Below, in pieces: positions 15,656 through 60,800 of a DNA stretch of 64,000 nucleotides (the stretch's first letter is position 1; each line of letters begins with the position of its first letter). The notes under the pieces were generated by a model. The model was not told the origin of the DNA, did not search any database, and saw only the letters and a list, made by a program, of their open reading frames with translations. A program made the translations under genes and the position numbers. Origin of the DNA: Brachionus manjavacas (taxonomy: Eukaryota > Rotifera > Eurotatoria > Ploima > Brachionidae); NCBI GenBank assembly GCA_019054805.1, contig JAHQIY010000019.1, positions 340,001 through 404,000 on the forward strand, given 5' to 3'.

Positions 15656-16289
15656 CGTGCAAAACTTTGGCAGCTCCGGTAATGGCTCTCCAGTATCGTT
15701 ACTTTATGCTTGCTGAAATTAAAAATTATATATTGGTGATCACCGTTTTGTCCATTACCCGGTCGCCATTGCTTTTCTTGATTGATTTAATTTTATCTCT
15801 ACATCTGGTTTGATCATTGATATAGGCAAATATGCATTTAGGTCTTCTCTTAGATCCTTCGATTATTTTAATTTCGTGATTCAATCTTGCTTTTCTAATT
15901 CGAATTTAACTCTTCTGGAAACCTTATTAAAATCGACTCTTTTCTGCTTGTCTTTGGTATTCATTTTCATGCTTAAGAATTCCATGAGAGAGTGTGGTGA
16001 AGTTTGTTTTTGTCCGACGAGCCTACCGGTGCACCAACTTAGACACTGTAAATACTTTTTATCTTATGACTGATCACCAGATCCAGTATTGAGGCTCCTA
16101 AAGCTGGATTCATTACATGCTGTACCAGAAAATTTTCCTCAAGTGCTTCAATAAATTTAGCACTTGCCAAACCCGCCTAACTTCTTCCGGAAACAAATCC
16201 ATGCAAGTTGTCTCATCTTATTTTCGGATAGTTGAAATCACCGGCTATGAGCAAATCACTATATTTAACAGTACTCACTAATGCTTTAG

Positions 16290-23914: not shown

Positions 23915-24913
23915 CTAGTTGCGATTCTTCTGCTCTTCCTCCCACAAACTAACGGCCACATCGACCAACAGCCTCAAATTTGCCGTGTGGTCGTCGGACA
24001 GACCGACAGCCGCGGCCTGCTGCTGCACCGGCATCTGATAACCCTGAACTGGTTGTAGCAGCAAGATACTCTGCATGTGGTGGTGGTGGTGCTGCTGCTG
24101 GTGCTGCTGGTGTACGTGTTGGTGCATTTTGAGCATGTTCTGTTGTTCGGTGTAGTTGCGGATTGTTTTACGGTTGAGGAACTTTGTCTTGCGCGCGCGC
24201 TCCTCCTCTTCGTTGAGGAGAAGGTCGGCTACAGTGTGGTGAGCGGGGTCGCATTTGGGGCTGGAGCCGGGGGCGCTGACCGGGGTGAGCAGGTTGAGCT
24301 CGTCGGCGCACGGCCTGCCCTCGGCGCTCTTGTCGCTGATCAGCTCGTAGTACTTGGATATGTGGTTGGACTTGGGCGGCTGCTGGACGATGCTGAGGCT
24401 GAGCGCGGCCGAGTGGCTGCGCGGCGGCTTGACCGCGCTCGACTTGCGGCTGATGGTGTAGTGGCCCGGGTCGTTGCCCTCCTTGCGGATGATGTCGGGC
24501 AGGAGGCGCCGCCGCGCGTTTATGAACCAGTTGCAGACCTGGTGCACGGTGAGGTTGGCGCGCTTCGACAGGCTTATCTTTTCGTTCTCGGTGGGATAGG
24601 CGTTGTAGCGGTGCTCGTACAGCCACATCTTGAGCACTTTGACCGAGTCCTTGGGCAGGTTGCCGCGCCGCTTTCGGCTCTCGGGCTCCGAGAACTCTTG
24701 TTTGAAGCGTTTGCTGTGCCGGTAGTCGGCCAGCTCGATGTGCAGCTCGTGCTCGCAGCACTCCGACTCCATGTCCGTTTCGTCCGTGTCGCTCGTCTCC
24801 TCCTCTTCCTCGCTGGTGATGGACTGGGGCCGGCGCTTTTTGGCGTCCGGCCCGTAATCCCCCTGCGCCTCCACTACTAAACTCTCTGGTTTACTGGCGT
24901 TCAACAACATCAT
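23915..24913 (-). CDS. TGIF-type TALE homeodomain transcription repressor
   Basis: A single exon of 332 codons. The frame is open to 24928, but the first in-frame ATG is 24913-24911, directly followed by a second. Acidic region at residues 35-55. TALE homeodomain at about 80-142: the three-residue loop extension is seen at [12 protein letters not shown], helix 3 is [20 protein letters not shown], and Ile50 is the TALE-class residue. Asn51 and Arg53 needed for DNA contact are present. A His/Gln-rich tract follows, and the extreme C-terminus has [16 protein letters not shown], which matches the conserved C-terminal motif of TGIF proteins. TGIF binds TGTCA-type sites and represses retinoid and TGF-beta/Smad targets. 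The gene is far richer in G/C than its surroundings, and I see no intron. Homeodomain family call is firm. Confidence 0.93.
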
Positions 24914-25154
24914 TGTCTTAGATAACAATCAACAACAACAACAATTAATTTATATCTAAATCAAACAACAAACGGTTTGGAAATATTTCAATTTTTATAG
25001 CAGTTGGTTGCATAATTTTGACATTCCCCCCTATCTGCTTGCGCCAATTCAAGCCCTATGCGATCACGTGATCAATTGACAGACTAAATTCTCGACTCAC
25101 ACACACACAGAACTCAACTGCATTTACAACTATCTATTGTTGATTGCGATTGTT

Positions 25155-28149: not shown

Positions 28150-28601
28150 TCTGTCAAAGATAATAATATAATAACAATAGTGAGCTACGGTGGTTTATCT
28201 CAGCTACGGAATGCTATAGTAGCTTTCCCAGAGTGCTTAATAATCCTTTAACTATCGCGACGTATTGATTTCGTCAACCATTTTCTTAAACATGTTGTTT
28301 GAACTTGCTTTGACTACTTCAGGAGGCTATCTGTTCCAATTTTGTTAAGTATGAATTGTTCTCGTTGGTTGATTCTTGTCAGTTGTTTGGACATTCCGAG
28401 TTGGTACCCACGTATACTCCCCGCTGGACCAGAACAGCTCAACAAATCGCAAAGTTTGTTTGGATAGTGCCAGTTCACTTTAGTTAAACCATTAACTATC
28501 TTGAAATATTCGACAAGATCACCCCTCTCTCTTCTCTTGCTCATGGTGGTTAGTCCCGAATTCTCTAATCTCTTCTCATATGATAGATGCTTAGATAACA
28601 T
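28150..28601 (-). mobile_element. 5'-truncated copy of the 14-17 kb retrotransposon
   Basis: On the minus strand from 28601 down it encodes LSYEKRLENSGLTTMSKRRE, then RGDLVEYFKIVNGLTKVNWH and SCSGPAGSIRGYQLGMSKQL, about 90% like the corresponding part at 14490-14828. The 3' untranslated part (TGAGCTACGGTGGTTTATCT at 28181 on the plus strand) and an ATAATAATA tail also match. It retains a SYEKRLENSG segment that the larger copy lacks. Confidence 0.8.
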
Positions 28602-31600
28602 CCTTTTTTCTCATACTCTGTCCATATAAATAAATTAAAAATTAAATAAAAAATCAATTATTTATTCTTTCTTTCCTGAGTCGTACAATTTATTTTATTT
28701 ATCTATTATTTATTTCCACAAAATCTCAATAATAAAATATTAACTTTATTAACTTTTTTCAATTTATCTATTTTAACTCTCTATACATGTTATTTTACCT
28801 TATTTTTACGACTTTTTTGAATTTCAAATGCAAATAAACCAACAAATAAATAAACAAATAAGTAATAGAAAAAAAGTTTATGTCTTGAGTTTTCTTTTTA
28901 TTTGTATTTTTGTTCGGACCTAAGCTCCTTCAAGATAAATAGAATAATATTTAAAACAAACTTGTTTATAGTTCCAATGTGTCCATATAAAGTTAAATGT
29001 TTGATAATTAATAATAAAATAATAAAATAAAATAGCCAAGATTTAAAGGGTTGCTAATATGGTAGATTGAAGAAAAAACAAATAAAAAGTTTTATATATT
29101 ATGCTTCTTTTGTTTGATTTTAATTCTAATCTCAATTTAGCCATAAATTGATTGATTTCATCAAAAAAGAACAAAAAGTATTCTAAAATGGTATAATAAA
29201 TAAGAACAAAGTATATAATCATGGACGAAATAATTAGGGAGGCCATTTCTTAATGCCACATACTCCCAGGATAAAAAAAACTCTAACTTTGGTTGTTTTT
29301 TAGTCTGTTTTAAAGTTTATTGTTAAAAGTCAATCGAACCCAATTCTACCTGTGCTCAAACTCTTAACTCAATAGTATACGCCAACTTTAAAGCTGTTGA
29401 GAATTTTTTTTGCTGAGTTCTGTCAATCGCTGGGCTAACAAAAAAAATTTTTACTTTTTTTTAAGATTTTTAAATATTTTAAGACAAATTTAGAAAAAAA
29501 TTGATTGAGTTGCCATTCTAAAATTTAACAAAATTGTTTTTTGTTAATTTTGAAATAATTCAAAAAAATAAGATGTTTTTTTAATTTCAAAATTAAGGCT
29601 CAACATTATAACTAGAAAACAGAAGAGGTTGAAAGTTATGTAAATTCAAAAATTAAAAATTTGCCTTTTTCACTGGATTAAGAGGATAATTTAACAGAGG
29701 TAAAGAAACTTTTCAAGCATTCAAGGCTTTAATATCATCCCAACAAGGTTCTTCTGGAAAACTGTCAAAACCAGCTCTAGTTTTACAAATTATTTGGAAA
29801 AATTCCCGAATCTTTTAACTCCTTTGTAGCTGTATTCAAGAAGATTCTGATCTGTTTGCCCATCAAATAACCTCTTTAAATTGTTAATGATCTAAATTCA
29901 GAATCAAACCGTGGGGATTGCTGGTTTATATTTTTTTTGCCAATTTAAAAATTAAAGCTAGGAAAAAAAACTAAAAGATAAAAAAAAATTCAAATTCAAT
30001 TACGGTCAAAAAAAATTCATCTAGACAAAAACTCAAAATAATTCAAGATCTAGATTTGCACGATAAAAGCACTTGTCTTATCAAACCGGTGCCTATCACA
30101 ACTTATTTATTTAGCCGACGATACGGTGCTTTTGTGCGTCGTACGATTTATTGAGGTAAATTTCACTTTTGTTTGAAAAATCTTATCTAAATTTAGACTT
30201 TAGAAATAACATAATTTTCTTGATTTTAATTTTGGCTCATTTCGAACCAACTCAAACTTCTATTCTATGTGCGTCACTTTGAATCCGGCCCAGCAATTCT
30301 TGCTGCTAATCGACCGGCAAATGTTTGCATAAAGTTAAATTTTGAAAAAAAAAACACTCAAGCTCGTTTAGTCTCCTATTCACAACGTAATTAATTACAA
30401 AAATATGCTTGAAAGATAGTAAAAATACTACAGAAGTTATCAATCTATCTAATTTTAAACACTGCCTTGTTTACTCTCTCTTAAATAGAATAAGATTAAT
30501 TGCTTTTTTCTCTTTCTCTTTTCTTTTTTGAGAAATGCAATTTACTATCATTTTGATATGTTAATTAAACCTGATGGCCAACCTTGAATTTAGTGTCATC
30601 AATCATTTGAATTTGAAATCGAGCACTGCTTCATTTAGATAGGCCTCAAAATGTTCCTTGTCGAATGCAGCTCTTTCAAATCATAATTTCGACATTTTTT
30701 GACATATCTCGAAATTATGTAAAAATAATTTCATAGTGAACAAAAAAAAACTCAAAATCCCCTCCGAATTCAATTAAATTATCTAAATGTGATGTTTAAC
30801 TAAAAAACAAGCTGAAATTTGTTCTATTTGACAAAGATAAATAATTTGTCTCCAAGTAACGTGGTCAAGGCCACATACTATTCGCCGCCGTCACCCCAAT
30901 CACATCTAATTTACTTTTCTTCAATCAAATATTTATGTGTTACTTAGGCTCACAACTTGAATGAAACCTTGCAACAATATCGAAATATTTAATTAGTTTC
31001 TCTTTGAGAGCAAATACACCTAACCGTCTTATATCGATTGTAATTAAATCGATTCTGAAAGCCTCCAAGCAACACACTAATAAGCTAAACAAACTCTAGC
31101 TTTGATTGTTTTAAGTTTGTTGTTAAAAGTCAATCAAACCCAATTCGGCTATACCCACGCTCAAACTCTAACCTATCTTAGCTGCGTCACTAGCATAGTC
31201 TGTTTTATTACATTCCCAATCTCTTTCTTTAAGGGATGAATTTGCAGGCTCTTCTTGATAGAATGGAGCGGCTTTGATCTAATCAGCAACTCAAGTCAAG
31301 CCAAAGCGTGTTGTAGAAGTTTTTCTTTTCAAACTATATTTGATTACGAGTCAATTTATTTTTTGCTTTAATAAACGTATATTAAAGGTAGCTCTCTCGG
31401 AGGCATTAAATAATTTCAATGAGATAAAGTGATATAGACAACAAAGTGAATGTATGTGTGTTTGTGTGTGTGTTGACAATTGCAACGTGAGTTTTTCATC
31501 GAGCTTAACAGTAAGGAGAACTCGCTAATCGAAGATAAATAGTGTTTACCGAGGAGTTCTTATCGAAATAGTTTTTAATGAAAGATCGAGTTACGGCTTT

Positions 31601-36359: not shown

Positions 36360-37033
36360 TTATAAAATTCTACAAACTAAACATTTTGGGCTATTGGTAT
36401 CTTGATTTCTAGGCACTGAAGACATTTGATTGATGGCACTTATTTGATTAGTGTTTTGAAAAATGCTATTTGGCACCGAAGACTCGTAGGGGTTTGCCCG
36501 ACTACTTTTTATAGATTCGATAAGTTTTTTTTTAGATTTTTTCTCATCTTTATTTAGATCAATATTCATCAAAAAATATGATGACGGATTGACATGTCTG
36601 GCGATCATGGCAACTATCTCATTATTTCGTTGCTCTCTATCAGCTACTATTCCGCATCCACCGTGACCACCAACACCAAAATAATCCACATAAACCAACT
36701 GGCTAAATATGAGGCCCATTCCACCCGGAGGCGGCCATGGAGTTGCTGTCAACATAATCGGAACAATTGGTTTGCGTATCAAGTCCGCCAAGGCCATTTC
36801 ACGATTGCAATAATGAGAAACCACAAACTTGGGCGTTATGCAGGCCACAACCACTTTTGCATTTCGAATAGCCTCGTCTATTTTTTGATAGAGTAAATTT
36901 CCTCCGCCAATTTGTCCAATATCCATGAAACAATTAAATCCAGCTTTTTCCAAATGCTCCCTGATTTTAACAACTAGCTCTTGCGAGTCCCATTGATAGC
37001 TTATAAATACCGAAGAATTAACTGTCTCTTTAT
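36360..37033 (-). other. TIR-domain exon of the fusion gene
   Basis: The last exon. It begins after the acceptor TTTATTTTTAG with the codon split G|AT. Strand A is SSVFISYQWDSQELVVKI, then LEKAGFNCFMDIGQIGGGN, then KVVVACITPKFVVSHYCNRE. Glu1207 (in NREMALADL) stands where SARM1 and plant TIRs have the NAD-cleaving glutamate. PIVPIMLTATPWPPPGGMGL closes the fold. A basic Lys-rich and then Ser/Asn-rich tail runs to NSPKCLVCRIL. Confidence 0.85.
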
Positions 37034-40000
37034 CTAAAAATAAATAAATTAATTTTATAAAATTTTTATTTTTAGTCAAAAAAAAAGCTACTTTTTCTAC
37101 AATATTTTTTTTCTCATTTTTTTTTAAAACATACCTCTTTCATTATTTATTACTTTGATGACATCATCTCTGCTTATTTGCTCCAAATAATTTATCAAAA
37201 ATTCAATTGTCAAATTAGTGTTGTCACTTGACATGATCCAGTCGCAAATCAGCTGCAGTGGGGGGTTATCGCTTTGGCTGAAATAGCTAATGCGGCTTTT
37301 GTTATAGCCTAGAAGACGTGCCAGTGCCAGCCAGTCGTTTTCGTTCTGAACCACTTTGATTGTCTCATCTTTGCTCGTTTTGAGCATTTTGGCCACATTT
37401 TTAACCCAGTTCGGCAGGCTGTTTTCTTCATAGTACATATTTTTGTCTGAAAATGATTTGACAGCATTCAATACTGGACCCTTATGCACTTAAAAATAAA
37501 TTTTATTTTATTCATTGCCAAATCTGGCGTAACTTTATAAATAAATATAATAATTATTATCTAAAAAGAAAATTTTTAATTTAAAAAATTTACATGATAT
37601 GTTTTGAATTGGAAACCAACTTTGGTAAATAAGGGTCTTGACGCGTCGGTATTCACAGTTTACTATCTAAAAGAAAAAATTTAAATTTGAAATTAAGTGA
37701 GGATTTTTTTACATTGTTGGTCAAGCACTCATCTAGATTTAAAAAATGGATGCATTCGTTGTGAGAACACAATTTTTGCTGATGTAGATGGCACACTTTG
37801 CCACAGTGGCATTGAACACAAGCGTTGAATTTGAGTCGTTTGATCCACATGTTTTTCAAGTCAATTAGAACTGTTTCCATAAAATTGCGTACTTTGGCAC
37901 ATGAATTTGGCACTGGCAAGGTATGCTCGCTTTCCTCGTCGTCCATTCGAATTATCTGAATTTTTATCCGGGCATATTTTATCGGCGCTAGCTCGATCAC
38001 AAAGTCATGTTTTTCATCTAAATAAAATCTAGCTGTATTTGAGTACAAATTGACTGATTTGTTCACATCCGATCCATTCTTCATCAATGTCCATCTCGCG
38101 GTTCTTGTAATTATTCGATGAAATAAAATCTCTTTATGAAAAAATTAATAAAACTAAAATATAATTAATTAAAAATATTTAAAAAAAAATTTAATTTACT
38201 TAATTTCTTAAAAATAAAATGGTTTCATATTTAACACATTAAAAAATTTCATGTTACAAAAAAACAATATTTTTTTTCATTAGAAAAGCATTTTTTGTGA
38301 AATCATATGATTTGCCTTAAAAAGTTATTTCTGAATTTTATGAAAAAAAAATTTGAAATTTCCTGAAATGACCAAAAATATAAAAATTTTTTTCACCGCT
38401 TAAGGTCAAAACAATAAGGGAATAGCCCAATATCATTTTTGACACTTGATACAAATTAATAAGAAATCTAAATTATTTAAGAAAAGCATTCTTTTGTAAT
38501 TTTTACATTCAACTAAGATTTACGACATCTTTTGTATCTAAAAAAAAATTATAGTAAGATAAAATTTTAAATAACTTTATGACGTGATTCTTTTTTAATC
38601 TTTGATAAAATTTAGTTCAAACATATCAGATAAGTTAATTAATGAATCATTATTTTTATTCTTTAAATAAAACAATTATTTAATTTTATTGATTTCTAAA
38701 AAAATTCAAGAAAACTAAATGCTACTGATGAAGAATTTAGAAAATAAAAAAATAATTTGTTTCTGAGAATAAATAGTCTCAAAAAATCACTTAACCATAA
38801 TTTTGGAAACTACTTGTTCGAAATCGAGTCAAAATTCAATTTGCAAAAGCTTTCATTTAATTTTTTAATTCTTTCATTTAAGATCAAAAAATGCCTTTAA
38901 ATCTTATGCTGATTATCAGTAAAAGATTTTTTTTGAATTTTTAAATTTTAAAATTCAATGAATTTTTATTTAAAAATTTTATTTGGTTGAATTTTGATTA
39001 TAAATCTTTTAATTTATTTGGTGTTTATATGATAAATTAATATTCATCTCTTTACTTATATTACTATCTTCAAAACTCTTTAAAAATCTTAAATTTTTTT
39101 TTTGTCCAAGTCCAGACTTTTTTTTAATTTTCTTTCATAAGTTCAAGTCCAGGCTTTAAAATTTTGAATATTGTGAAGAAAATTCTGATATTTGGCAAAT
39201 CTATTGCATTAGACAACCCAAGAGTAAATAAATTTGCTGATATGAAGCCTGATCTAGCTAATTAAAAAAAAGTCCGGACTTGGACTTTTTTTTTGGGACT
39301 TTTAAACAACTCTGGTCTATTTTGAACTATAGAGATGAGATATGTTCCCATAACTTTTACACCATGATCAACCCAAATTCTTAAAGCTTGTAAAATACTC
39401 TACAAAAAATTTAGTCATGACTTTTGCATCTAAAATATTTAAAAAAATTTAAAAAGGGATTTTAACAAATTAAACAAATTTTTATTTAAAATATCAAAAA
39501 AAAATTAAAATTTTTAAATTCTAACTTTAAATTTGTTTTTATTTGTACTAAAGCACACTATCTATTATCAGAGTTGAAATATTTAAAAAATATCTTTAAA
39601 CTAAACAATTTCAAAAAGATGTAAAAGATAGAACCACTAAAGCATCCAAAATGGGCTAAATTAATCGAAAATCTAAACCTACAAATAAAAGCATCTTTTT
39701 AATTGAATACAGAATTTTTAATTGAAGAAAATAAATAATAATATTTGGGAAAAATGCTAAATCAAATTGTGAAAAACAATCTCATCACAATTAATCAGTT
39801 GACCAAAATACAAACGGTTTTGTGAAGTTCAGCACAAAAGAACAGAACAAAGTTTAAAAAAATTAAATAAATACTTTTCTAAAAGTTTAAAATTAGTTCT
39901 GTGGATGCAGCATGATGCAACATTCAAAGTTGCATCAAGCATAATAATATACAGCATAAGTCTGCTATATATTATAATTGAAATTTAATTTCTGCTAAAA

Positions 40001-43000
40001 TCCGCAAATTTATCAGACTTAGATATTTGATGCAACTTTGAACATTGCACTATATTGCATTTACAGAACCAAGTTTAAACCTTTAGAAAAATAGTTATTC
40101 AATTATTTTTACATTTTTTTCTGTTCTTTTTACCAATTTGTACTGAATTTCACAAAATTGTATTTTGGTAAATTGATTAATTGTGATGAGATTAATCAAA
40201 AAAAATTATTTTTTATATTTTTCTTTTTGATAAAAATAATTTTAAGACTAAAAACTCAAAGAATTTAATCTAGTTCTACCAAGTGCGGCGTCTTACAAAT
40301 TTTTATCAAAAATTTTATGCTAAAAATTTTTTGGGTTTTCTCGAATTGAAAAATAAAAAAATAATTTGAACAATTGAAAAAAAATTTAGAAAAGTTGACT
40401 CAAAAATTTGGCATTTATACCCAAGTTCAGAAAATCACATTTATTCATTTAAAATACCAAAAAATTAAACTTGCCTGTAAAAAATCCGCAAAAATCATAA
40501 AAAAACTCTACAACATGTACATTATTAGCATCCAATCTGAGTCTATTTTTTTGGAATGAATTAATGCCAAAATCAGACACGTCCTCAATGAAACTGCTTT
40601 CATTCATGGAGCTTTCGCTGTTTAAATTTTGATTAGTATTAAATCTAATAATAGGGTTGTCATTGTTTTTGCTGTACTTAACAGTTGCCCGACTCGGCAC
40701 TAAATATTCTCGACAAATACCAAAATTTTCTTTAGCACCTGTCTTTTCACATATCAAGTCAAATTTTTTCATTAGACCCATCAGACCTGGCTTTTGGTTG
40801 ATCTCATCCTTCCACAAAACATCCAGCAGCCGGTCCTCCAAAATACCATGCTTGTCGAATTTTTCCCACAAATTAGACAATTTCTCATTCATTACCAAAC
40901 TGGTCTCGGATGCGTACAAAATTTTATTAAAAATTTCTATCAACTTAAAAGGCCTTAGTATGATGGTGTTGCGTAAAAAAATGTCATTTGCATTGCCATA
41001 GTATATAATAGTGCCCAAGTCGTTTAAAAAATTTAAACAAGTGCTCAATTCTTCTTGAGTGCGGATGTCTTTTTCGTGTGCCAACTCGCATATTTGCGAA
41101 AGGGATGCATAAAAAAGACCCTTTTGTTTCAATTTGTCCAAGCTTTTTTCAAACTTCATCCATCTGACTGGCTGCTGTTCGCCCATGTACGGCTCCTTGT
41201 ACGCAACTAGTTCAATTAACCTCTTCAATATGTAAATATTGGAGTCATTTGTGTACGAGTCACACTGGCATAAATCATCCAAAGGTATAAATGGTTCGAT
41301 CACGTGATTAGCGTAGATTTTCGTAGAAATAAATTCTTTCAAGTAGTCGAACTTGCGGTTTATTTCTTGATCGCTTAGGTTGTTTTTGTTAGTGCCGACT
41401 ATTATTATAGGTGGCAATAGAGCCGAGTATTTGAAGTTGATTACTAAATTTTGGTCGAGTCTTATTTTAGAGTGGATGTCACTTGCCGAATTGGATTCGG
41501 ACACTTTTGCCGTGTGACTGTGTATACTTTTGAGCAATAAGTCAAAGTATTCAATATAGGTCATTTGATGATTGTTACAATGAGAAAATGCACAGGAATA
41601 AACTGGTTCATTGAAGTCCTTGGTCAAGTCAAAGCAAACCAAATAAATGGCTCTTGACGAATACAGAATTTGGTATGTTTGGTCAGCTTGGTAAAGAATT
41701 TTATTTTTTAATTATGATTTTATTAGAATAAATTGGAGAATATCCGTCAAAATAGGGAATTTTTAGAATAACTTTTTTATGACTGTCAATAAATTATCTG
41801 ACAAATCTTAATATCAGAAATTAAATTATTAATTGTTATTAATTATTGAGAATTCTTAATTTTTTTTAGATTTCTCCTTGACTTATACATAGATGGCGCA
41901 ATAGACATTTAATTTAAAAATAAATTCAGAAAAGAGTCTAAATTGCATCAAAAAGAAGAAAATATTTTGAATAATTTTTTAAAATTGGTTTATTAAAATT
42001 AAATTCCATGATTTGAATGCTAGAATTTTTAAAATAATTGTCCTATCATGACTCCTAGATCGAAGAGACTAAATTTGAGAATTAAGGTATGAATTTTCGT
42101 AAAATTTTGGACTTTTTAAATTTTTGAAAAATAATAAGTTTAGAAGAAAAACAAATATTAAAAATTAATCTCAAAATTCACCTGCCTCAAAACAATTTTT
42201 ACAATTTTTTTAAATTCAGGATACCAAATTTTCTTAAAATATTAAAACTGTCATGGCATTGTGAAATTTGGTACAAAAAACAAAAACAAGATATAAAAAA
42301 TGCCAAAGCTCAAGTTCTGAAGGAGCAAAACATGTCCTGTAAATTGTAGCAACTGAAACATCCTTTGTACCACCAATATACTGATTCTGCAAAACTATGC
42401 AATACAACAGCAAAATTCAGAATTTTGTGAATTTTAGTACAAAAACAGAAATAATATATAAATTAAACCAAAGATTTGATTTGGACAAACGAAAAAGTAT
42501 TCTGTATATTAGAGAACTTAAATTCAGCGCAAAGACAACTTAAGAAGATGCAACTATTCTGCAGAGTAATTTAAGCATACTTAAATGTGTTCGGATTTTT
42601 TAGAAATTTTTGCAGGGTTATTTGGGTGATCCAATTAATTGAACCTGCTTAAAAAAATTTAATTTTTTCATTTTATGAAATTTTTAGCTTACTTTTTGTT
42701 TTTATTTTATGAATATACAAAAAAACAAAAAGTGAGGTCTTTGATCATCGATTTGACTTCAATTAGAGACACTTTTTTCTTCGCTGAATAGTTTTTTTTT
42801 TAATTAATTAAAAAAAATTTTCCAAGACACATTTAGAATATAGCAAAAGTTTAAAATTCTATACTTTTGAGTTGCTAAGTGTATTTAAATGTGGTTTAAA
42901 TGCTTTGCAAGATTTTGAATCTGGGATTATACATTAAGTAGTGGTACAGAGGATGTAGCAGATGCTACAATATACAGAATACTTTTTCGTTTGTCCAAAT

Positions 43001-45178
43001 CAAATCTCTGGTGTAATTTATATATTATTTCTGTTTTTGTACTAAAATTCACAAAATTCTGAATTTTGCTGTTGTATTGCATAGTTTTGCAGAATCAGTA
43101 TATTGGTGGTACAAAGGATGTTTCAGTTGCTACAATTTACAGGACATGTTTTGCTCCTTCAGAACTTGAGCTTTGGCATTTTTTATATCTTGTTTTTGTT
43201 TTTTGTACCAAAATTCACAATGCCAACTGTCATTTCTTTACTAAAAAAAACTTAAACTTATCTCTTGATTTGAAATAAGAAATTTATGGCTTAAAGAATA
43301 AATTTAAGACCTGAATAATATTTTTAACCATTTTTTTAATAAAATTTACCTCAGCGATTTTAATTTTAAATTTAGTTTTTTTTAATTTTTTATCATAAAA
43401 TTGTAAAAACATTATTAAAAAATATTTTCCATGAAGTAAGAAGGTAATCATATTTATTGTCGATTTTTAAGATCCCAAATAAATGAACAAGTATGGTCAC
43501 CTAAGGAATTTTATGTATTCAGAATTATGCACAATTAGTGGGTATGGTAAAACATAGTATGTTACACACTCTTCTTTCTCAAATTTTTGAATTTACAATT
43601 CTTAAATACCATTTTTTTTTAGATAATTTTTGAGCATGATAATAAAGATCTGATCACAAACTTCAATTTTCCAAATAAATAAAAATCATTACCTATACTC
43701 GAAATAGTAAGTGAAAGACGATTTTTGGCAATCTTCTCCAATTCATTTGTTTCTTGTTCTTCCATCGATTTGACAGTTATTCTACTTCCCATTGTTTTAA
43801 ATTTGATAATTTTAATCTCATTTAAAACAACTTGTTTATAGAAAAGAAGCAAAATTTTACTACATGATAAATGTCTATATAGACTAGTCTCGAATTCTTC
43901 AATGGCAATTTTCAAAATTAAATCCTGATTGAAACTTAAATTATCTCTGTCTGTCAAAATTGATTGTATTCTGTCAAAAATGGAATTTTTATACAACTCA
44001 CGGTAAATATTTACCGCAATTTGTCTATAACTACTTCCACTCGGATCCTGTTTCATATCATCTAATTAATTTCAAAAAAAAAAATTATTTAAAATATTTA
44101 ATTTCACAAAAAAATTTTTTATTTTTTATTTTAAATTTTTTATTTTAAATTTTTTATTTTTTCATTATTTACTTGGATCTATATCTGATTGATTGAACTC
44201 ATCCAATTCTTCAATTTGGTATAAATCATCATCTGAGTCATTACTTGTGTCCGAATCTTGCTCATCACTGGTCTCACTATTGACGCAATAATCATCTACC
44301 GAATCGACAGAATTCGACTTTTCCAATTTAAACCTAGTCTTGTTGGTGTGATAGAACGAGTCAACTGATGTTGATCTGCTCATTGTTGAATTAATTCTTT
44401 TAGTGTATCTTCCTGTCCTGAGCTGCCACACGGACTCTTCTATTTTGACCCTAAATGAAGCTGATAAGCCTAATTTCATTTTTTGCCTTTGACTTAATAA
44501 ATTTTTATTAAAATTTTATATTTCTAAATATTACAATTACTTTGAGTTAACCAGGCAGTATTTTAGATTTTTTTTGGCATCGTTGTCTTGGCCGACAATC
44601 AAGAGCATGGTTTTGTAAATTGGCTTGGATCCCCCGGTTACACATGCGCTGTGGAAGTTGTTGACTGCGTCAAGACCTCTTTTCTTTATCTCATAGGGCG
44701 TTTCGTCCGAGGGCAAAAATTGGACAGTGCCTGTTGAACCATATATGTCAAGTAAGAGCCATAATTTTTGAATACTAGTTGCTATTTTGTCAAATAGCGT
44801 AGCTTTAACAACATTGTTTATTTCTAGATGTAGACAGTTATTTTGGTCCAGAACTATAGTAAGTCTGTTGCCGTGTTTTACGTAGGACCTTTTGACACAT
44901 GTTATCCAATATGAGTCCATGTTGCACAGGGTCGGATAGGAAAAATCGGCTAGTTCACTGGAAAGTAGAGTGGACGGGTTTTTAGATGTGAGACCGATGC
45001 GTAAACTACCAGTCCATGTGCTTTGGGGAATTTTTTCCACCATGAATGTGACGCGCTGAAGTTGGGTTAGCGGACTGCTGGAAAATGTTATGCCCTGGCA
45101 AAAACCACTCGAGCGTTTGGCTTGGGAAAAATCGGACGACAATTCTATGTTTTTTCCATGGACCGAGTGAAAATACAT
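36360..45178 (-). CDS. Neuralized-Roc-COR-Death-TIR fusion protein
   Basis: Eight exons on the minus strand: 44541-45178, 44173-44492, 43693-44061, 40475-41686, 37713-38131, 37594-37666, 37135-37488 and 36360-37033. They join in phase to 1352 residues from ATG at 45178. Order: Neuralized (NHR) domain 3-156 (FHSVHGKNIELS, FSYPTLCNMDSYWITCV, GTVQFLP). Start of a Roc GTPase with altered P-loop, 190-212. An insertion of about 230 residues, acidic at 285-318. Rest of Roc (ADQTYQILYSSRAIYLVCFD, PPIIIVGTNKNNL). COR from about 615 (PVRWMKFEKSLDKLKQKG) through GFFTEILFHRIITRTARW. A Cys/His cluster at 951-973. A Death domain at about 1060-1125 (NDWLALARLLG, SRDDVIKVI). A TIR domain at about 1135-1275 (VFISYQWDS, GGGMGLIF-like PPPGGMGLIFSQLVYVDYF). 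The C-terminus CRIL resembles a prenylation site. The intron after exon 4 appears to be GC-AG. Long inverted-repeat elements sit in introns 3 and 4. Individual domain calls are firm; the joining of all exons into one gene is inferred from phase and domain order. Confidence 0.78.
39069..39314. mobile_element. Degraded copy of the hAT-type MITE
   Basis: The right end is clear: AAGTCCGGACTTGGACTTTT, then GGGACTTTTAAACAACTCTG, ending at 39314, as in the element at 5733-6237. The left end is weak; CAAAACTCTTTAAAAATC at 39069 may be its remnant. No target duplication found. Confidence 0.5.
39779..40193. mobile_element. Inverted-repeat (foldback) element in intron 4 of the fusion gene
   Basis: The left arm starts AATCTCATCACAATTAATCA (39779) and the right end is its reverse complement (to 40193). 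The arms continue with ACCAAAATACAA..TTTTGTGAA.TTCAG.ACAAA, and again around GATGCAAC..TTCAAAGTTGCATC near the centre. Nothing is encoded. No target duplication is evident. It shares its TTGTGAA..T..G.ACAAAA motif with the elements at 42255 and 57742. Confidence 0.65.
42246..43233. mobile_element. Foldback element with 256-bp arms and 9-bp target duplication
   Basis: The element is 42255-43224. It is flanked by a perfect 9-bp direct repeat AACTGTCAT (42246-42254 and 43225-43233). The arms, 42255-42510 and 42969-43224, are near-perfect reverse complements starting GGCATTGTGAA. The spacer of about 460 bp encodes nothing recognisable. A 9-bp duplication with very long inverted repeats fits a Mutator-type (TIR-MULE) element. 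It lies in intron 3 of the fusion gene. Confidence 0.85.
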
Positions 45179-46197: not shown

Positions 46198-47773
46198 CTA
46201 AAATTTCTCATCTTTTGCTTTAAAATTATGTCTAACCTCGAGATATATGTAAGAAAATATGCCACTAATAGTAATGGCAATGAAAACAAAAATCTTTATT
46301 TGGGTGCAAAAGTATACAGAGAGGACAGATCCCAAGACTAACCCGATTGTTTCAAAGATGATAGCAGCGCTGTATGCCGAAGGGTTTGAGGGGAAAAAAA
46401 TTCCAAAAATGGCTCGGACTTGGGAGGTGGCAAGGCAGTCTGTAAAAGCAAGCGAAACTGCCATCAAGAAAATTATGTAGATTCCTGAATTTGGATTCGG
46501 TGTCCATGACAACATGAATACCTGAAGAATCAGAGACTTCATCAGCATGAGCACTACAGTTGTCTGCAAGCCGATGTATTTTACGAATCGGCCGGATATT
46601 AGTGAAAACAAAGAAGCTGCCAGGCCGAATGTAATGCTAACCCAGCCGATAAAATTCACATTTTTCAAGCAGGAAACAAAACTCTTGTGACAAAATTAAA
46701 CTTTAGTTCTTAAAAATTTTTAATTTCTAAATTACTCGATGAAATTCGAACCACAAAAAAGTAAGTTCGTAGCCAAGAAATACCGCTATGGGCATAAGCA
46801 ACCATATTTTTAGCTGTTTGAACAGATCGAACAAATTTTGAAATTCATTTTTAAATTTAAAAACTTAAATGAAATTTTTTTTTAATAAAGAGAAAAAATT
46901 TTTTTTTTTATTTTACTTATTTTTTGAATTCCAATTTTGCCGCGTTCAATTTTGTTCATGTTTTCGTCGTATTTTAAATCATCTACAAAAAAAAATGCGA
47001 TCAAAATGGACAAAATGCATGCACCATTGATAGTGGCACATAGACCGTAAACTGATGAAACAGATGGTTTGGAAGCCGACTCAGGCAATTTTGTACCAGG
47101 ACAGTTGTTTACACCGCAACTATCTGCGTAGTCAAATGTAGCATTGACTGGCAGATCTTTTAGCTTCAAAATGGTGCCGATCCAGAGAGCGCCCAGAACA
47201 TAGTCTATTTAATACAAATTAAATGAAATAAAAATTTTCAATTTTAGTTACTAAAAAAAAATATTGATCCAAAGGTGCCGAAGAGCAAGGTTTGTGCATG
47301 CACGAAAGTGACATTTTTTATCAAGGAGTATTTTTTGCTCAAAACAGTGAAATAAATGCCAAGAGTGGTCCATGAAAGACTGTTGGCAAAGCCGGACAAT
47401 ATTGAGCCGGGAATCAGTGTTGACCACGTTGGAAAAGTGTTTGCTATAAAAAATAACAAATAGCATGTTTGGGCAAGCATGAGGGTGAATTTAAAGCCGA
47501 TCAGTTCTATGATCACTTGTGGCCATACAAGACCGGTCAAAAATTGCACCAAATAGACTATGGCTTGGCTGCCATTGCCAAGACTACCGTCCTGGTTTAG
47601 GACACCTTATGGACGACATTTATTCAAATTTTTGAAATTTTTCTATATTTACTTGATATCATTGCGATTACATCAAAAGATGCAAATATAAGGATAAAAC
47701 AAATATTAAAAGCAATGAAATTTTTATAAACTGTTTGTATTTCATTTAGCCTCATGCATTTTTGGAAGAACAT
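46198..47773 (-). CDS. UNC-93-like multi-pass membrane protein
   Basis: Five exons: 47653-47773, 47252-47605, 46917-47204, 46736-46863 and 46198-46683. Introns of 47, 47, 53 and 52 bp, all GT-AG and in phase, give 458 residues, close to the length of vertebrate UNC93A. It begins MFFQKCMRLNEIQTVYKNFI. The family block SSVLNQDGSLGNGSQAIVYL follows TM1, corresponding to the QSSLN..GGLG..S motif of UNC-93 proteins. Later blocks fit too: SWTTLGIYFTVLSKKY, ELTFLWFEFHRSFVSCLKNV (family pattern FLW.DFT.S+V.C), and IGWVSITFGLAASLFS. About ten to twelve membrane helices are expected (major-facilitator fold). The family includes a potassium-channel regulator in worms and Toll-receptor chaperones in vertebrates; which role applies here cannot be told. 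Confidence 0.88.
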
Positions 47774-49354: not shown

Positions 49355-49660
49355 GGTTCCATTTTTTTAAAAAGGTGATAAATCAATGCCGAGCAATTAT
49401 CGTCCTGTGTCTTTAACTTCTAATCCGTACAAAATTATGGAAAGCATAATAAAAACCAAAATGGAAGATTATATTATATCTAAAGAACAGAATGGAAAAG
49501 TCAAGAAAAATTCATCTACAACTAATCTTCTGGAATCTCTAGATTTCATCTCAATGAGCCTAGACAAAAACATTCCTGTTAATGTGATTCAGGTAAATTT
49601 TGCGAAAATATTTGAAACTGTGCCGCAAAAACGACTAACAGCTAATAGTTTTGATGTTTT
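49355..49660 (+). pseudogene. Reverse transcriptase fragment, N-terminal part
   Basis: VPFF*KGDKSMPSNYRPVSL (one stop) followed by SNPYKIMESIIKTKMEDYII, then STTNLLESLDFISMSLDKNI and VNFAKIFETVPQKRL. These are the first blocks of a non-LTR reverse transcriptase (KGD..P.NYRP+SL, FAKAFD.V). The frame loses similarity after about 49650. The matching later part is at 50415-50870. Confidence 0.75.
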
Positions 49661-49677
49661 GAAACACTTAAACTTTT

Positions 49678-50415
49678 CCCCACAAAGAAAAAATTTTCAG
49701 TTCAAAAATAACTTGACTAAGATAAAAACTTCTAAGCAAAAACTGACCCTAAATATTTTAGATAATAAAATGCCTATGATTAAACGTAAAAAAAAAAATT
49801 CCAAATTTTTGGAGATAAACAATTCCAAAAAAAAAACATATAGACGGTACTTAAAATTAATCAATTCACTCAAAGGAAAAAATTGATTTGTGAATTTAAG
49901 CATGGTTTATCATTTATCTAACACTTCTAAACAATTCGCATACGAGCCACGTCCCAGTACCAGAGTCCAAAGAGCTGCCAAATCAATGGTTTCTTGGACC
50001 AATTTCAGCAAAGTAGCCAAAAGAATCTATGAGTTCAATGATTATTACAAACTAGAAGCTAAGAAACGGACATAAGGATGCAAATATTTTATTAATTTGG
50101 GTTATTTTAGTCACCAGTTAGCCCTAAATAAGCTCCTGGAAAACGACGAATTTGCTAATAGACCTAAAAAAGATCGTCCATAATTAGCTGAAAATTGGTT
50201 TTCCTTAAAATAGATTTTAATTTAATTTTTTTACATATATTTTATAAACACTATTTGAATAAATATACAACAAACATATTAGATTTTTTTTCACCACAAA
50301 AATTTTGTTTAAACCAGTTATTTGATTCAATAAGTAAAAATAATTTTTTTTGAATTCGGCACAAAAAAATTGTATTTTGTAGTGATTTGTGTTAAAAAGT
50401 TTTTGGTTTGTAGGG
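49678..50415 (+). mobile_element. Decayed element with SWIM-type remnant, inside the retrotransposon
   Basis: The plus strand about 49890-50200 reads NLSMVYHLSNTSKQFAYEPR, then YEFNDYYKLEAKKRT, stop, GCKYFINLGYFSHQLALNKL, LENDEFANRPKKDRP. CKYFINLGY.SH is a degenerate SWIM finger (first Cys pair and last Cys lost), as in Mutator-like transposases. The tentative ends are CCCCACAAAGAAAAAATTTT on the left and, from the right, CCCTACAAACCAAAAACTTT. No target duplication could be found. Confidence 0.5.
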
Positions 50416-50870: not shown

Positions 50871-51862
50871 GATTTGACCATGTAACCCAATGCAACCTCA
50901 TTATTTGAGTTCAGTTTCTGAAATTTCGTTCAAAACTGAGTGAGCTTGCCAATTTTGATCCGTATTCATAAAGATTCTTAAGGTTTAAAAATGAATTTTC
51001 ATCATATTTCAATTTTTTCTTCAGATTCAAACCAAAAAAAGTTGAAAAAAGCAAAATTAATTTTTTTATTTAAATTTAAGCTTAATTTTTTAATTCATTA
51101 ACCTCTATTTTCTGGTTAAATTTTTCTATACAAAATACCTAATCACACTCGCTATTTGGGCGCAGTATCCAAATGAAGCCCGGGCTAAAAATTTAAAATT
51201 TTTTTAATATAAATGGGGCTTTAAATTAAAAATTGAATTTGACTGAGCTTCTAAAGATTTTGTTCGATTTTTGGTTCCAAACAAATTATAAAACTTGAAA
51301 AGTAAAAATGAAAAAAAATTCTGATTCTACATTAAACTGCTTTGTTGCGACCCTACCAATTTCGTTGATTGTTATTCCATCACCAGAATAATAGCCATTT
51401 TGAACATCGTCATCTTCTAAATATTTTTCTAATTTAGTTTTACATCTTTAAATTTATATTTTACTGATAAAAATTTTAATAAATGGTTATCAAAATTTTT
51501 TTTTTATTAATTTTAATGATATAAAAAACCATTTGATTTTTTTTTAACCCTTTAATCCTGGGATAATTGGCAAGGTTTTACAGTACCTGTAATTCATCAA
51601 AACCATAATTTTAACAAAAAAAGATCTTTCTTTAAACTTGATCTTAAGTCGGCTTAGTTTTGAAAATAATAAAAAAATTATTTTTTAAAATAAAAGCACA
51701 CATATTCAAACCAAATAATAAATAAATAAATAAAAACTACTTGCATTATTTAATCTACATTTTTTGGCAAATTTTAAAAGTGAACTTTAGACCGCCAACA
51801 AAAATCTATTTTATAAACTCAAAATTATTTTCATAGAATTCAAATCTACTCCTTGAAACAAA
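50871..51862. other. AT-rich spacer upstream of HADHB
   Basis: Nothing coding recognised. The last 100 bases before 51863 would be promoter and leader. Confidence 0.4.
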
Positions 51863-53720
51863 ATGGCATATAGTCTAAAATTGACCAAGCAAGCCCATGC
51901 ATTGAGGCTCTTTGGGCTGTCAACTCGCTTTGCCTCCACAGCTCCTGCGCGCAAAGCCAAGAGCCAATTTGACAAGAACATAGTCTTGATCGACGGTGTC
52001 CGTACACCATTCCTGCCTTCTTTCTCCGCTTACAAAGACCTTTTGGGCTATGAGCTGGCCCGCAACGCCTTGCTAGGCATTGTCAAAAGAACTAATGTAA
52101 ATTTGTCTGATGTTGACTACATTATAATGGGAACTGTTATCCAAGAAGTGAAAACAGCCAATGTTGCACGTGAAGCAGCTTTAGCAGCAGGTTTTCCACA
52201 AAAGATACCCGCTCACACTGTCACTTTGGCATGTATTTCTTCGAACCAGGCGATCACTACTGGTATTGGTCAAATCCTGTCCGGTCAATCGGAAGTAGTA
52301 ATTGCCGGCGGTGTAGAAACAATGAGCGATGTGCCCATTCGTTTCAGTCGTCCCATGAGAAAGCTACTTCTTTCACTCAACAAGGCAAAAACAGCACAAC
52401 AACGCTTGGCTCTTTTGTCAAAAATATTCTCCTCAAAGCCATTGAGCCCAGAACTTCCGGCAGTAGCGGAGTTCTCTACCAACGAAACTATGGGTCACTC
52501 CGGAGACAGACTAGCTGCCGCGTTTGGTGTTTCCCGCCGCGAACAGGACGAATTTGCGCTCAGATCACACACATTAGCTGAAAAGGCAACTAAAGAAGGT
52601 CTTCTGGCCGATGTTGAACCAGTTTTTGTTCCGGGCAAAAGCGAACCAGTGACCCGAGACTTGGGTATTAGGGTGTCAACTATGGAAAAGCTGTCTAGTT
52701 TGAGACCAGCTTTTGTCAAAGAGCATGGAACTGTGACTGCAGCCAACGCGTCCTATTTGACAGATGGTGCATCGGCTTGTTTGATAATGACTGAGGAAAA
52801 AGCCAAACAGTTGGGTCTAAAGCCAAAGGCGTATCTGAGAAATTTCACCTATGTCGCGCAGGACCCCAAAGATCAGCTTCTTCTGGGCCCAGCTTATGCG
52901 ACGCCAAAAATTCTACAAAGTTCGGGCCTAGCAATCAAGGACATTGATGTGTGGGAGTTTCATGAAGCGTTTGCGGTAGGTACCAAATAAAAATGAGAAT
53001 TTTTTTTTACTTTTTTTTTATAAAGACATTGCATTAAAAAATTAATTATCAAAAATATTAATTATAGTTTTCTTGCTTTTTTCTTAATTTCATTAAACAA
53101 TTTATTCAATTGTTGAATAATTGGATAACTTTTTAAGAAAAAATCAGAATACTCTTTTTTCAAGCAGAAAATATTAATTTAATATTTTTTTTTGTTCTTA
53201 AAAATTTTTGAACATTTATCCGTTCATACTTATCTAATTTTTTCTTAAATTATTTTTCGATCAAATATACAATTTAAATAAAAAAATTGTCATACTTGGC
53301 AACAAAAAAAGAATGGAATACTTTTACCTACTAAAAAGAATCTTTAAATGAACATATTTTTTAGTGTTTTTTAATATTTTTGTTAAAAGGGTCAAATTAT
53401 GGCAAATTTAAAAGCTTTGGATTCGGACTGGTTCGCTAAAAATTATATGGCCCGTCAAGAAAAAGTAGGTTCGATTCCAATGGATAAATTTAACAAGTGG
53501 GGTGGTTCGTTGTCAATTGGGCATCCGTTCGGAGCTACTGGCGTCCGTTTGGTGACTACTGCTGCGAATAGATTGCATCATGAAAATGGCCAGTATGCTT
53601 TGATTGCGGCTTGTGCAGCTGGAGGACATGTAAATTTAAAATTGAATTTAAAGCTAATTTTTAATTTACTTTTTTAATTTAAAGGGCCATGGTATGTTGA
53701 TTGAGCGATATCCACAATAA
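51863..53720 (+). CDS. Mitochondrial trifunctional enzyme beta subunit (3-ketoacyl-CoA thiolase)
   Basis: Three exons: 51863-52975, 53390-53629 and 53685-53720, introns of 414 and 55 bp with GT-AG ends, all in phase 0, giving 462 residues (human HADHB has 474). The N-terminus is a mitochondrial import sequence (basic and Ser/Ala-rich, no acidic residues before residue 37). All thiolase motifs are present: nucleophile Cys124 in [18 protein letters not shown] at the end of exon 1, GHPFGATG (His about 416), and the base Cys about 446 in AACAAGG. Exon 3 encodes [11 protein letters not shown], as in other HADHB proteins. It catalyses the last step of long-chain fatty-acid beta-oxidation with the alpha subunit HADHA at the inner membrane. 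An AATAAA lies at 53782-53787. Identification and splice sites are firm. Confidence 0.96.
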
Positions 53721-55656: not shown

Positions 55657-57036
55657 TTAACTATATTTATCATACAAACATGTAAAAATTAATGAGAATA
55701 CAAAAACTGCTATTACTGTTGATAGAATTCCATTTTTGAACAAAATTTCCGTATGCGATTCAAATTTAGCAGATTGATTTCTTTTCTTAGCTTCCTCCAA
55801 TTCTTCGGCTGCCTCCATAATTTTCTTGACTGAATCACACTCTTCATCATAGTCAAAATTAACACCATCACAGTCCCACAGCCATTTGCTTGCTATTACA
55901 TCCAATGGTGCCGGATACTCGATCCAGTCCAAAATTCTGGCTATGCTCAAAAAATAGACATCACTCTTCTGAACCATTCCATCGGGCTTCACAGTTGTAG
56001 CTTTGCTCACAAAATCTACCAATGCTTTGGTTAACGCATCTCCATATGTGTCAAACCAACTTAGCTCTATATTAATAACATACGGTGCTTTGTTTGTCGT
56101 GTAGTGTCTTTTAAAGTTATCTATCAAAAATTCTGTCAGAATTGTGCTGTTGATCAATTCCTTGGGAAAACAATTTTTGGTCTGAAGTCTATTTTCGGCT
56201 ATTTCGTCCCTTATAAGAGTGGGGCACGGGTACTTGCCTTCGACATTCAAATAATGCAGAGGCACAATCCATACCGAGCTCATTGAGCAGTTCGATTGAC
56301 CATTGCACAGGGATTTTTTGGTGGGACAAGTGGGGCATGTGTAGTTGGCCGGAAAGTCCAAGGTATGCGGCCACAGTCTAAGTCCATTGTGGTTCTTGAT
56401 GTCCTCAGGCCTAACAATCACTGACGAGTCGTATTTGAAACCAAATTTTTTCAGCGCTCTAAAATGAGCGTTTCCTCTTTGGTCCAAAAATGGCACTCGG
56501 AAACCGCGCAGAAATGACTTGTTTATCCGAGACTTATTGGCTATGTTCTTTTTTTGTTTAAGTATGTTCTCTTCGGCAGAGTCCGATCTCCACTTGTGGA
56601 AATTTTGACCCTGAAATTCACAGTCTGTGTACGGACAAGTGTACTTTGGAGCGGTGACACTTATTTCGTTGTTGTTGTTGAACAAAGTTTGCGCAAAACA
56701 GTAATCAGTTTTTTCATGTCCGGTATCGGACACGAAAAATGTCGCCTGAATGGGACACCCATTGGGGTTTTTGAACAAAGGATTTAGGATTTTTCTGATG
56801 TATTTGGAGTGCAATGATGTAAGAACGCCATTGAATGTGAGCGCAACCATCATTGGGGTGTCCGCAAAGTGAACCGACATTGGTCGCTCTGGATTTGAAC
56901 ATTTGCACAGTGGAAGCCGGCAATTCAAAAAGTTACAGTCTTCGATTTTTTCCTGCTTGATCATCTCCTGAGCTGTAAAGTCATGGCATGGCAAATTAAG
57001 TAGAACAAAGCTCAGTGAAAAAATAAAAAGCTTCAT
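55657..57036 (-). CDS. Chitin-deacetylase-like membrane protein, probably catalytically dead
   Basis: A single exon of 459 codons from ATG at 57036. Residues 1-22 are a signal peptide. A short Cys-rich segment (CNFLNCRLPLCKCSNPERP) precedes the polysaccharide-deacetylase fold: MMVALTFNGVLTSLHSKY, NPNGCPIQATFFVSDTG, SFLRGFRVPFLDQRGNAHFR, LWPHTLDFPANYTCPTCPT. These match the insect CDA family in order and spacing. The metal-binding and catalytic residues do not: the TFDD motif is TFNG (residues 67-70), and the HS..H motif that follows ATFFVS is absent (NNEISVTAPKYT). A hydrophobic segment near residues 432-452 (LSTVIAVFVFSLIFTCLY) would anchor the C-terminus in the membrane, unlike secreted insect CDAs. 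It may bind chitin or a related glycan without cutting it. Confidence 0.85.
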   Translation of the reverse strand: MKLFIFSLSFVLLNLPCHDFTAQEMIKQEKIEDCNFLNCRLPLCKCSNPERPMSVHFADTPMMVALTFNGVLTSLHSKYIRKILNPLFKNPNGCPIQATFFVSDTGHEKTDYCFAQTLFNNNNEISVTAPKYTCPYTDCEFQGQNFHKWRSDSAEENILKQKKNIANKSRINKSFLRGFRVPFLDQRGNAHFRALKKFGFKYDSSVIVRPEDIKNHNGLRLWPHTLDFPANYTCPTCPTKKSLCNGQSNCSMSSVWIVPLHYLNVEGKYPCPTLIRDEIAENRLQTKNCFPKELINSTILTEFLIDNFKRHYTTNKAPYVINIELSWFDTYGDALTKALVDFVSKATTVKPDGMVQKSDVYFLSIARILDWIEYPAPLDVIASKWLWDCDGVNFDYDEECDSVKKIMEAAEELEEAKKRNQSAKFESHTEILFKNGILSTVIAVFVFSLIFTCLYDKYS

Positions 57037-57741
57037 CTTCTTTTTTTCAAAAGAAATTTATTGAAAATAAATTTTACAACAAAAAAATCTTGTTAATTTT
57101 ATAGTTTTTTGAAAAATTTACTCATGTACTAGAAGCATTTTATTTTAAAAATAGACAAGTCTCGCTTAGCTTTAGAATATTGTTGAGAATTAATATTTTA
57201 ATCTATTTTTATAACTTATTTTGAATTATATCATCAAAATAATCAATTTTTTGTTTTTATTTTTTCTAAATAAAAAATTTTAATGAATTAATAAATGGCT
57301 GCTGTACGATCATACTCCAGAATTTAAATAAAATACCACAAATAACTTGATTGACCACAGTTCAACATAAATCCCCAAATTTTTTAGCTTTTAGATCTGT
57401 TAGTTGAATAAAAAACCGTACTAAAAAATAAAGAATACCAACTGATGAATGAATCTGTATTTTGAGGCGTGTGTTAAACCTTCTGACAAAAATAAATTAT
57501 ACGCTGACAAATTTTTTCTGACTAAATTAATTAATGTACTGACAAATTAATTATTAAATGACTAATTAAATTAAATAAAGACTATTCAAATTAAGCATTG
57601 ATAAATCAAATTTTAAAGTTAAAATAAAATAAATTTCTTATGGCTATTTTAATAATTAAATAAAATTATTAATCTGTGCTGACAATTTTTGAATTCACTT
57701 GTTGAAATTTTTGAAAAAACTTCTTATCCTTCGGTATGTAT
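57037..57741. other. AT-rich spacer
   Basis: Upstream of the deacetylase-like gene. Several TGACAAATTA-type repeats around 57480-57560 (CTGACAAA, CTGACTAAATTAATTAA, CTGACAAATTAATTA) are noticeable, but nothing else is recognised. Confidence 0.4.
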
Positions 57742-58118
57742 TTAAAATCCTCAAAAGACTGGCACTGTGAATTTTGAAGCAAAAAACAAAAACAATAATC
57801 TTAAAATGAAATAACTTTTTTACTAAAAGTCTAAAAATAGTTCTGCAAAATGTATCAGCTGGTACAAACATTGTACCACCCAAATTTAGTTTCTGCAATA
57901 ACTCTGCAATTTAATTTTAATGATTTTCTAATACTTTTAGTGCTTTGCAAACTTGCAGAGTTTTTGCAGAAACTAAATTTGGGTGGTACAAAGTTTGTAC
58001 CAGCTGATACATTTTGCAGAACTATTTTTAGACTTTTAGTAAAAAAGTTATTTCATTTTAAGATTATTGTTTTTGTTTTTTGCTTCAAAATTCACAGTGC
58101 CAGTCTTTTGAGGATTTT
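57742..58118. mobile_element. Foldback element, near-palindromic
   Basis: From AAAATCCTCAAAAGACTGGC (57744) to its reverse complement ending at 58118, the two halves pair over about 170 bases each, with a short centre near 57925-57940. It contains GGCACTGTGAATTTTGAAGC, similar to the end of the element at 42255 (GGCATTGTGAAATTTGGTAC). GGTATGTAT before and GGTTTTTAT after could be a 9-bp duplication with two mismatches. An open frame across it is a by-product of the palindrome. Confidence 0.7.
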
Positions 58119-60205: not shown

Positions 60206-60346
60206 ATTTTTTGTTTTCGTATATTTGACAAAAATTTCAGTCAAATCTTTCAGAATTAGGAGATTAAAATTTAATGAGAATGGAAAAAAGTATTATTATT
60301 TTTAGCATTAAGAATATTTAATAAAGTAAATAAGATTTGAATTCAC
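60206..60346. other. Upstream region of the channel gene
   Basis: Short AT-rich stretch; nothing recognised. Confidence 0.4.
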
Positions 60347-60800
60347 CATAACTCTGCCGTAAGCCGGTCCCAAGCCCTGGATGAAAAAAGAGGAGGGTGG
60401 TGGCAGCCACGCAGTGTGGTCTTCTACGAATCTGAAGAAGAGCTGTATTACGGGTACATAGATCTACGGGTCTTTGTCCTAGTCTTGTCGTATGAGGGTG
60501 CCGCTGGCTTCGACCAACACCCAGTATAGAATCTTAGCAGAGCAAGAACTTGTTTTACAGCTGACCCTCTTTGGATAGCCGTAACTTTGGAAGCGCTAAA
60601 GTTAAGACATTCTCTCTTAGAGAGATGTCGCTTGGTTTGTGGTTCCAAGCTAGTCTAAATAGTTGTCGAGTTCGCAGCCCTTTAGTGCTCGGATGAGTGG
60701 CGCTGTTTATGATGAACGTCCCACGTGCTTCTTAGGGGAAGGCGCCGTCATAACTATGCCGTTTGCCGGTCCCAAGCCCGGATGCAAAAATAGGAGGGTG
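60347..60800. repeat. GC-rich repeat bounded by 53-bp direct repeats
   Basis: A block of about 450 bp with G/C content near half, sharply different from its surroundings. It starts and ends with near-identical copies of CATAACT.TGCCGT..GCCG, continuing GTCCCAAGCCC.GGATG and AGGAGGGTG (60347-60399 and 60749-60800). The interior minus strand (60448-60648) is open and reads HLSKRECLNFSASKVTAIQR. From memory, GCCGGTCCCAAGCCCGGAT is found at the ends of some R2/Dong-type retrotransposons, but I cannot confirm this. Confidence 0.6.

Follow-up and report, generated by a model that had tools for sequence, protein, structure and literature searches.

Does a single gene in the rotifer Brachionus manjavacas join Neuralized (NHR), Roc, COR, Death, and TIR domains in one protein, and, if so, is such a protein new? 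To address this question, we analyzed a 64,000-nt stretch of contig JAHQIY010000019.1 (hereafter "the window"; positions are counted from its first letter), in which eight minus-strand exons had been predicted to form one gene. With a model that rests on genomic sequence, we consider it very probable that this is one gene with the order NHR–Roc–COR–Death–TIR; our confidence in the gene and its architecture is reduced because the Roc region has little profile support and exon 3 has none. Most likely, the gene is genuine and its kind is already known, since the same or a very similar architecture has been described before.

Results

Gene Model and Domain Order

How well do the eight exons hold together? 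Joined at the positions given in Table 1, which are exactly those of the original prediction, they reproduce a frame of 4059 nt that is in phase at all seven junctions and has one stop, at its end. The donors are GT at six junctions and GC at the remaining one, while the acceptors are AAG at four and TAG at three. AAG also ends both introns of a thiolase gene in the same window that were joined by eye on the basis of thiolase motifs. The initiating methionine lies one codon past an in-frame stop, and an AATAAA hexamer is found ~20 nt downstream of the gene's stop codon.

Coding potential was scored against 57 noncoding stretches (mean, -0.26; maximum, 0.14). Seven exons scored between 0.13 and 0.34, with exons 5 and 8 under the noncoding maximum and exon 5 slightly higher in another frame. 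Exon 3 had a mean of -0.10, and the model stays in frame when it is left out; its open frame spans 148 codons, for which 0.02 occurrences are expected per 9.8 kb. An alternative acceptor for exon 2, at 44450, keeps the frame as well. The uncertain parts of the gene model are thus the acceptor of exon 2 and the whole of exon 3.

Table 1. Positions of the gene, its exons, and other features in the window
Feature	Position	Strand	Basis or remark
Whole gene, 8 exons, 1352-residue protein	36360-45178	-	Joined frame, single terminal stop
Exon 1: start codon, Neuralized (residues 3-155), probable Roc start	44541-45178	-	Pfam PF07177, PDB 2yue, profile register
Exon 2: first part of Ser/Asp/Glu-rich insert	44173-44492	-	Codon score 0.15; no Pfam family
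Exon 3: remainder of insert and Roc beta-3 RLSLTISSI (by eye only)	43693-44061	-	Least certain exon
Exon 4: Roc remainder and COR-A (residues 615-760); GC donor	40475-41686	-	Pfam PF16095; bacterial Roc-COR profile
Exon 5: part resembling COR-B, plus Cys/His cluster (residues 951-973 and on)	37713-38131	-	Very weak alignment; cluster by eye
Exon 6: 73 nt, after Cys/His cluster	37594-37666	-	Splice sites, frame
Exon 7: Death domain (residues 1060-1126)	37135-37488	-	Pfam PF00531
Exon 8: TIR_2 (residues 1137-1247) with E1207, tail KCLVCRIL, stop	36360-37033	-	Pfam PF13676; SARM1/AbTIR alignment
Foldback element in intron 3 (972 bp), outside the gene product	42254-43225		Arms of 257 nt, 99% complementary
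BTB-BACK gene	9157-10197	+	Pfam
TALE-type homeobox gene, TGIF-like by eye	23915-24928	-	Pfam
UNC-93/MFS transporter gene	46198-47606	-	Pfam
Thiolase gene	51857-53677	+	Pfam
ASC sodium channel gene	58712-60292	-	Pfam

Four of the five proposed domains were found by Pfam in the whole protein in the order that had been proposed, all above curated cutoffs: Neuralized (2.3e-33), COR-A (1.4e-13), Death (7.1e-7), and TIR_2 (2.2e-22); the Roc domain, said to lie between the first two, was not seen by Pfam. A fifth family, TIR (PF01582), matched at 6.9e-4, under its cutoff. Neuralized, Death, and TIR_2 thus occur together in one predicted protein, the combination that defines the invertebrate Neuralized–Death–TIR proteins. 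In searches of PDB sequences, solved Neuralized domains match at 9.5e-22 (2yue) and 2.1e-21, the COR part matches 4wnr (named a Leucine-rich-repeat protein) at 2.5e-5, and the Death part matches the p75NTR death domain at 0.004. COR seems to run across the exon 4/5 junction, although the in-register alignment over that junction reaches only 0.3 bits, which is not significant, and no COR-B match was found by Pfam in the protein. The Cys/His cluster that follows was recognized by eye.

A Probable Roc Region Lacking the GTP-Binding Motifs

Is there a Roc domain ahead of COR? The Pfam Roc family (PF08477) gave no match, either to the whole protein at E ≤ 1 or to two Roc pieces at E ≤ 10. This silence is meaningful, because the bacterial proteins that we scanned as controls (3 of 12) all gave strong matches to the same family (1.5e-22 to 1.5e-27). 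We then turned to a bacterial profile, for which exon 4 led to a cyanobacterial plasmid COR protein and this in turn to 12 plasmid Roc–COR records, all 12 of which were used. Depending on the piece, the rotifer protein scored 56.8 to 62.0 bits against this profile (61.6 bits when the piece began at exon 4), while the best of 200 shuffles reached 9.0. Most of this score comes from the COR piece, which alone yields 53.4 bits and, together with the COR-A match, identifies the COR domain expected of a Roco protein. The Roc piece of exon 4 alone scored 7.4 bits, a value reached by none of 500 shuffles (top, 5.8), and exon 3 alone scored -0.5 bits and added at most 0.4 bits to longer pieces. By these separate scores, COR can be called firm, a Roc domain preceding it likely but weak, and exon 3 unsupported.

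The original prediction held that each domain is recognizable by its own motifs, which fails for Roc. The expressions GxxxxGK[ST], DxxG[QA], and [NT]KxD occur nowhere in the 1352 residues, and GxxxxGK[ST] is also absent from all six frames of the gene region; functional G1, G3, and G4 motifs, as expected of Roco proteins, were not found. Among the members of the bacterial profile, GxxxxGKT is present in 12 of 12 and WDF[GA]GQ in 11 of 12; an NKxD-like string appears in 5 of 12 under the expression that we used, which makes G4 a poor test.

Where would the degenerate motifs lie? The register of the bacterial profile, here a weak guide, places a degenerate P-loop, LLIVGQDNDAKKN, at residues 192-204, at the end of exon 1. 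The likely P-loop itself, GQDNDAKKN (196-204), falls in the exact profile register with 3.8 bits, a score reached by 2 of 1,000 shuffles, and at least five of 133 other 52-residue segments of the protein outscore this place: two overlap Roc, while three, lying in residues 1011-1072, overlap each other and fall outside Roc. The remainder of Roc in exon 4 carries ADQTYQILYSSRAIYLVCFDLTK. The G3 position is SSIADQ by eye versus LSLTISS when the profile alignment is carried further without gaps, and the G4 position, again by eye, is TNKNN in exon 4. Between the P-loop and beta-3, exons 2 and 3 would contribute an insert of ~230 residues that is rich in Ser, Asp, and Glu and in which no known Pfam domain was found.

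From its sequence we read the region as a Roco-derived pseudo-GTPase with a long insert, because the P-loop GxxxxGK[ST] is absent from both the protein and the gene region. A working GTPase was considered and rejected, the GTP-binding motifs being absent from the protein. Nucleotide binding may nonetheless persist in Roc proteins whose motifs are atypical.

TIR Domain and C-Terminal Tail

Which TIR domains does this one resemble? Its nearest PDB sequences are TRR-2, AbTIR, and SARM1 (1.1e-4 to 2.2e-4), and no MyD88 entry appeared among the 43 PDB sequences found at E ≤ 1. E1207 aligns with a glutamate of SARM1 and AbTIR that is catalytic in those proteins; TRR-2, the best match, has a threonine in this column. 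The TIR piece matched four NCBIfam families, all under curated cutoffs and one of them a flavodoxin, and 15 PADLOC families, mostly TIR-type; the Roc–COR piece matched no family in either collection. The protein ends in KCLVCRIL, and its last four residues, CRIL, agree by eye with the CaaX consensus, Leu being the final residue; the tail may be prenylated and anchor the protein to a membrane.

Plasmid searches returned one COR record and four TIR records. No relatives of the TIR exon were confirmed among 25 viral_contigs and 99 genome_contigs pattern stretches, nor any of exon 4 among 1 and 62, respectively; because these collections hold viruses and prokaryotes, the null result says nothing about animals. 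Two single-exon structure models were unusable (mean pLDDT of 36.6 and 40.3).

One Gene or Several, Adaptor or Enzyme

Could two or three neighboring genes have been stitched together, with NHR and an acidic tail (exons 1 to 3), Roc–COR (exons 4 to 6), and Death–TIR (exons 7 and 8) belonging to different transcription units? Introns 3 and 4, which are long (2006 and 2343 nt), do hold AATAAA hexamers (five and eight, respectively), neither exon 2 nor exon 3 contains a known domain, exon 3 lacks profile support as a part of Roc, and exon 7, with a Met ahead of its Death domain, could start a gene. In exons 4, 5, and 8, however, the stretch that runs from the upstream stop to the domain lacks an in-frame ATG, so that no gene can start there, which argues for one gene. 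About half of intron 3, moreover, is the foldback element, the degenerate P-loop, weakly placed as it is, would link exons 1 and 4, and a very similar set of domains has been reported from other animals. Given the missing start codons and the weakly placed exon 1 P-loop, we judged separate genes to be quite unlikely, and the single gene of the original prediction gains support from the domain matches, the in-frame splicing, and the start-less exons. Very unlikely, in our view, is a decaying or misassembled copy (a pseudogene) of a normal Roco–Death–TIR gene under relaxed selection: the absent G motifs, the low codon score of exon 3, and the foldback insertion in intron 3, probably a recent one, would fit such a copy, but 1352 codons run without a frameshift or internal stop, the codon score is positive in seven of the eight exons, and the other four domains exceed their Pfam cutoffs.

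Taking the locus as one gene, we asked whether its product might be a pure adaptor or scaffold of the MyD88 type, whose TIR and Death domains recruit partners without an enzymatic role. This is possible, though we would place it somewhat below an even prospect. MyD88 is defined by Death followed by TIR without other large domains, and here NHR and COR precede them; the TIR domain matches TIR_2, SARM1, and AbTIR, with no MyD88 entry of the PDB at E ≤ 1, and it keeps E1207, yet one glutamate proves no activity. On the other side, the Death–TIR order does resemble that of MyD88, the best PDB match lacks the glutamate, and an Aplysia Death–TIR protein with a ROCO domain is filed as MyD88-like in the available text of PMC9334734.

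Intron Elements and Gene Neighborhood

Read by eye, direct repeats of 7 bp (ACTGTCA) border the foldback element of intron 3, which looks like a recent insertion; pieces ~70% alike are found near 57760-58102. Intron 4 contains a second, more diverged inverted repeat (39846-40119, with 93-nt arms that are 80% complementary).

Elsewhere in the window, protein fragments resembling non-LTR retrotransposons were seen by eye at 14490-15703 (-), 28314-28610 (-), and 49371-49886 (+). A RAGATH-11 RNA was detected at 60610-60729 (+) over the full length of the model, scoring 108.1 bits where the gathering score is 79.4. This stretch has 48% GC versus 29% in the window and is perhaps part of a mobile element; the term RAGATH-11 is absent from the open-access literature library that we searched. 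The genes around the locus (Table 1) make up an ordinary animal gene neighborhood. Together with the AT-rich sequence and the shortness of the introns, such genes would be in keeping with a lophotrochozoan, perhaps a rotifer. A 466-aa frame at 55657-57057 (-) is chitin/polysaccharide deacetylase-like by eye, with no Pfam family at E ≤ 0.01, and a frame at 6580-7224 (-) matches the carbohydrate-binding module CBM_21 at 0.0041, under the curated cutoff. No tRNA was found in the window.

Discussion

What might such a protein do? In our preferred reading, this is a single intracellular signaling protein of the invertebrate Roco–Death–TIR kind; that it works through an NHR sensor, a clustering hub, and a Death/TIR output, as set out below, we regard as an even call. 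Most likely, NHR would recognize a partner or ligand, and Roc–COR would act as a COR-mediated dimerization hub and protein-binding surface instead of a GTP switch, because it has no recognizable GTP-binding motifs. Clustering would bring Death and TIR domains together, with Death recruiting other Death-domain proteins and TIR either passing the signal on or cleaving NAD+, the latter being an option because the glutamate on which SARM1-type TIRs rely is retained in this domain. If the CRIL tail is prenylated, these events could take place on a protein tethered to a membrane. The output is probably innate immunity or cell death, and the immune or death scaffold role that had been suggested is plausible from the domain content.

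A more specific version, which we hold to be unlikely, would make the protein a prenylated, membrane-tethered TIR enzyme in which a nucleotide-free pseudo-Roc–COR has replaced the GTP switch: NHR would cluster the chains upon binding a ligand, Death would stabilize the cluster, and TIR would destroy NAD+. Were this true, the protein would kill or signal, and TIR resistosome-like receptors would have a counterpart in animals. More generally, an animal Roco–Death–TIR protein that has apparently lost GTP binding and kept COR would suggest that the hub works without a nucleotide switch. An independent link between the two kinds of domain is provided by human LRRK2, whose ROC domain is reported to bind NHR3-4 of NEURL4 in the available text of PMC4565672. 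With NHR and Roc–COR on one chain, the rotifer protein parallels this binding and would be a simple place to test it.

How does this architecture compare with known systems? The Roco proteins LRRK, MFHAS1, and DAPK share the Roc–COR core, and DAPK1 also has a Death domain; they begin with repeats or a kinase and lack Neuralized and TIR domains. SARM1 has a TIR domain like the one found here, and MyD88 has both Death and TIR, while neither has NHR or Roc–COR. The closest systems known are in other invertebrates, and the suggestion that no ROCO protein is known to be capped by Neuralized and to end in Death–TIR does not stand, since a combination of this sort is in print for an oyster and a centipede (PMC5094078) and apparently for a sea hare (PMC9334734), as far as the available text of both papers goes. 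The sea anemone protein NG3 has a central Roc/COR with Death and TIR, as here, but carries a kinase and SH3 where the rotifer protein has Neuralized (PMC5094078, available text). For Crassostrea gigas and Strigamia maritima, PMC5094078 describes the combination closest to NG3, with neuralized where NG3 has its kinase and SH3, so that a single protein would hold Neuralized, Death, and TIR_2, as in the rotifer; the available text does not mention Roc/COR or intact G motifs for these two. For the Aplysia TIR/COR proteins, the legend to Fig. 6 of PMC9334734 lists NHR, ROC, COR, Death, and TIR, the same set of domains, although this likeness comes from the legend and not from the domains or their order in each protein; a Death–TIR protein of Aplysia that has a ROCO domain is LOC101861518. 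This kind of NHR–Roco–Death–TIR protein goes unnamed in the available parts of PMC8195603 and PMC6321704, and the open-access library, where the searches were aimed elsewhere, yielded no paper about the absence of Roc motifs from such proteins. Set beside these known systems, the detail that the rotifer gene would add is a decayed Roc with a 230-residue insert, the TIR glutamate E1207, and a CaaX-like CRIL tail, all as predicted from its sequence.
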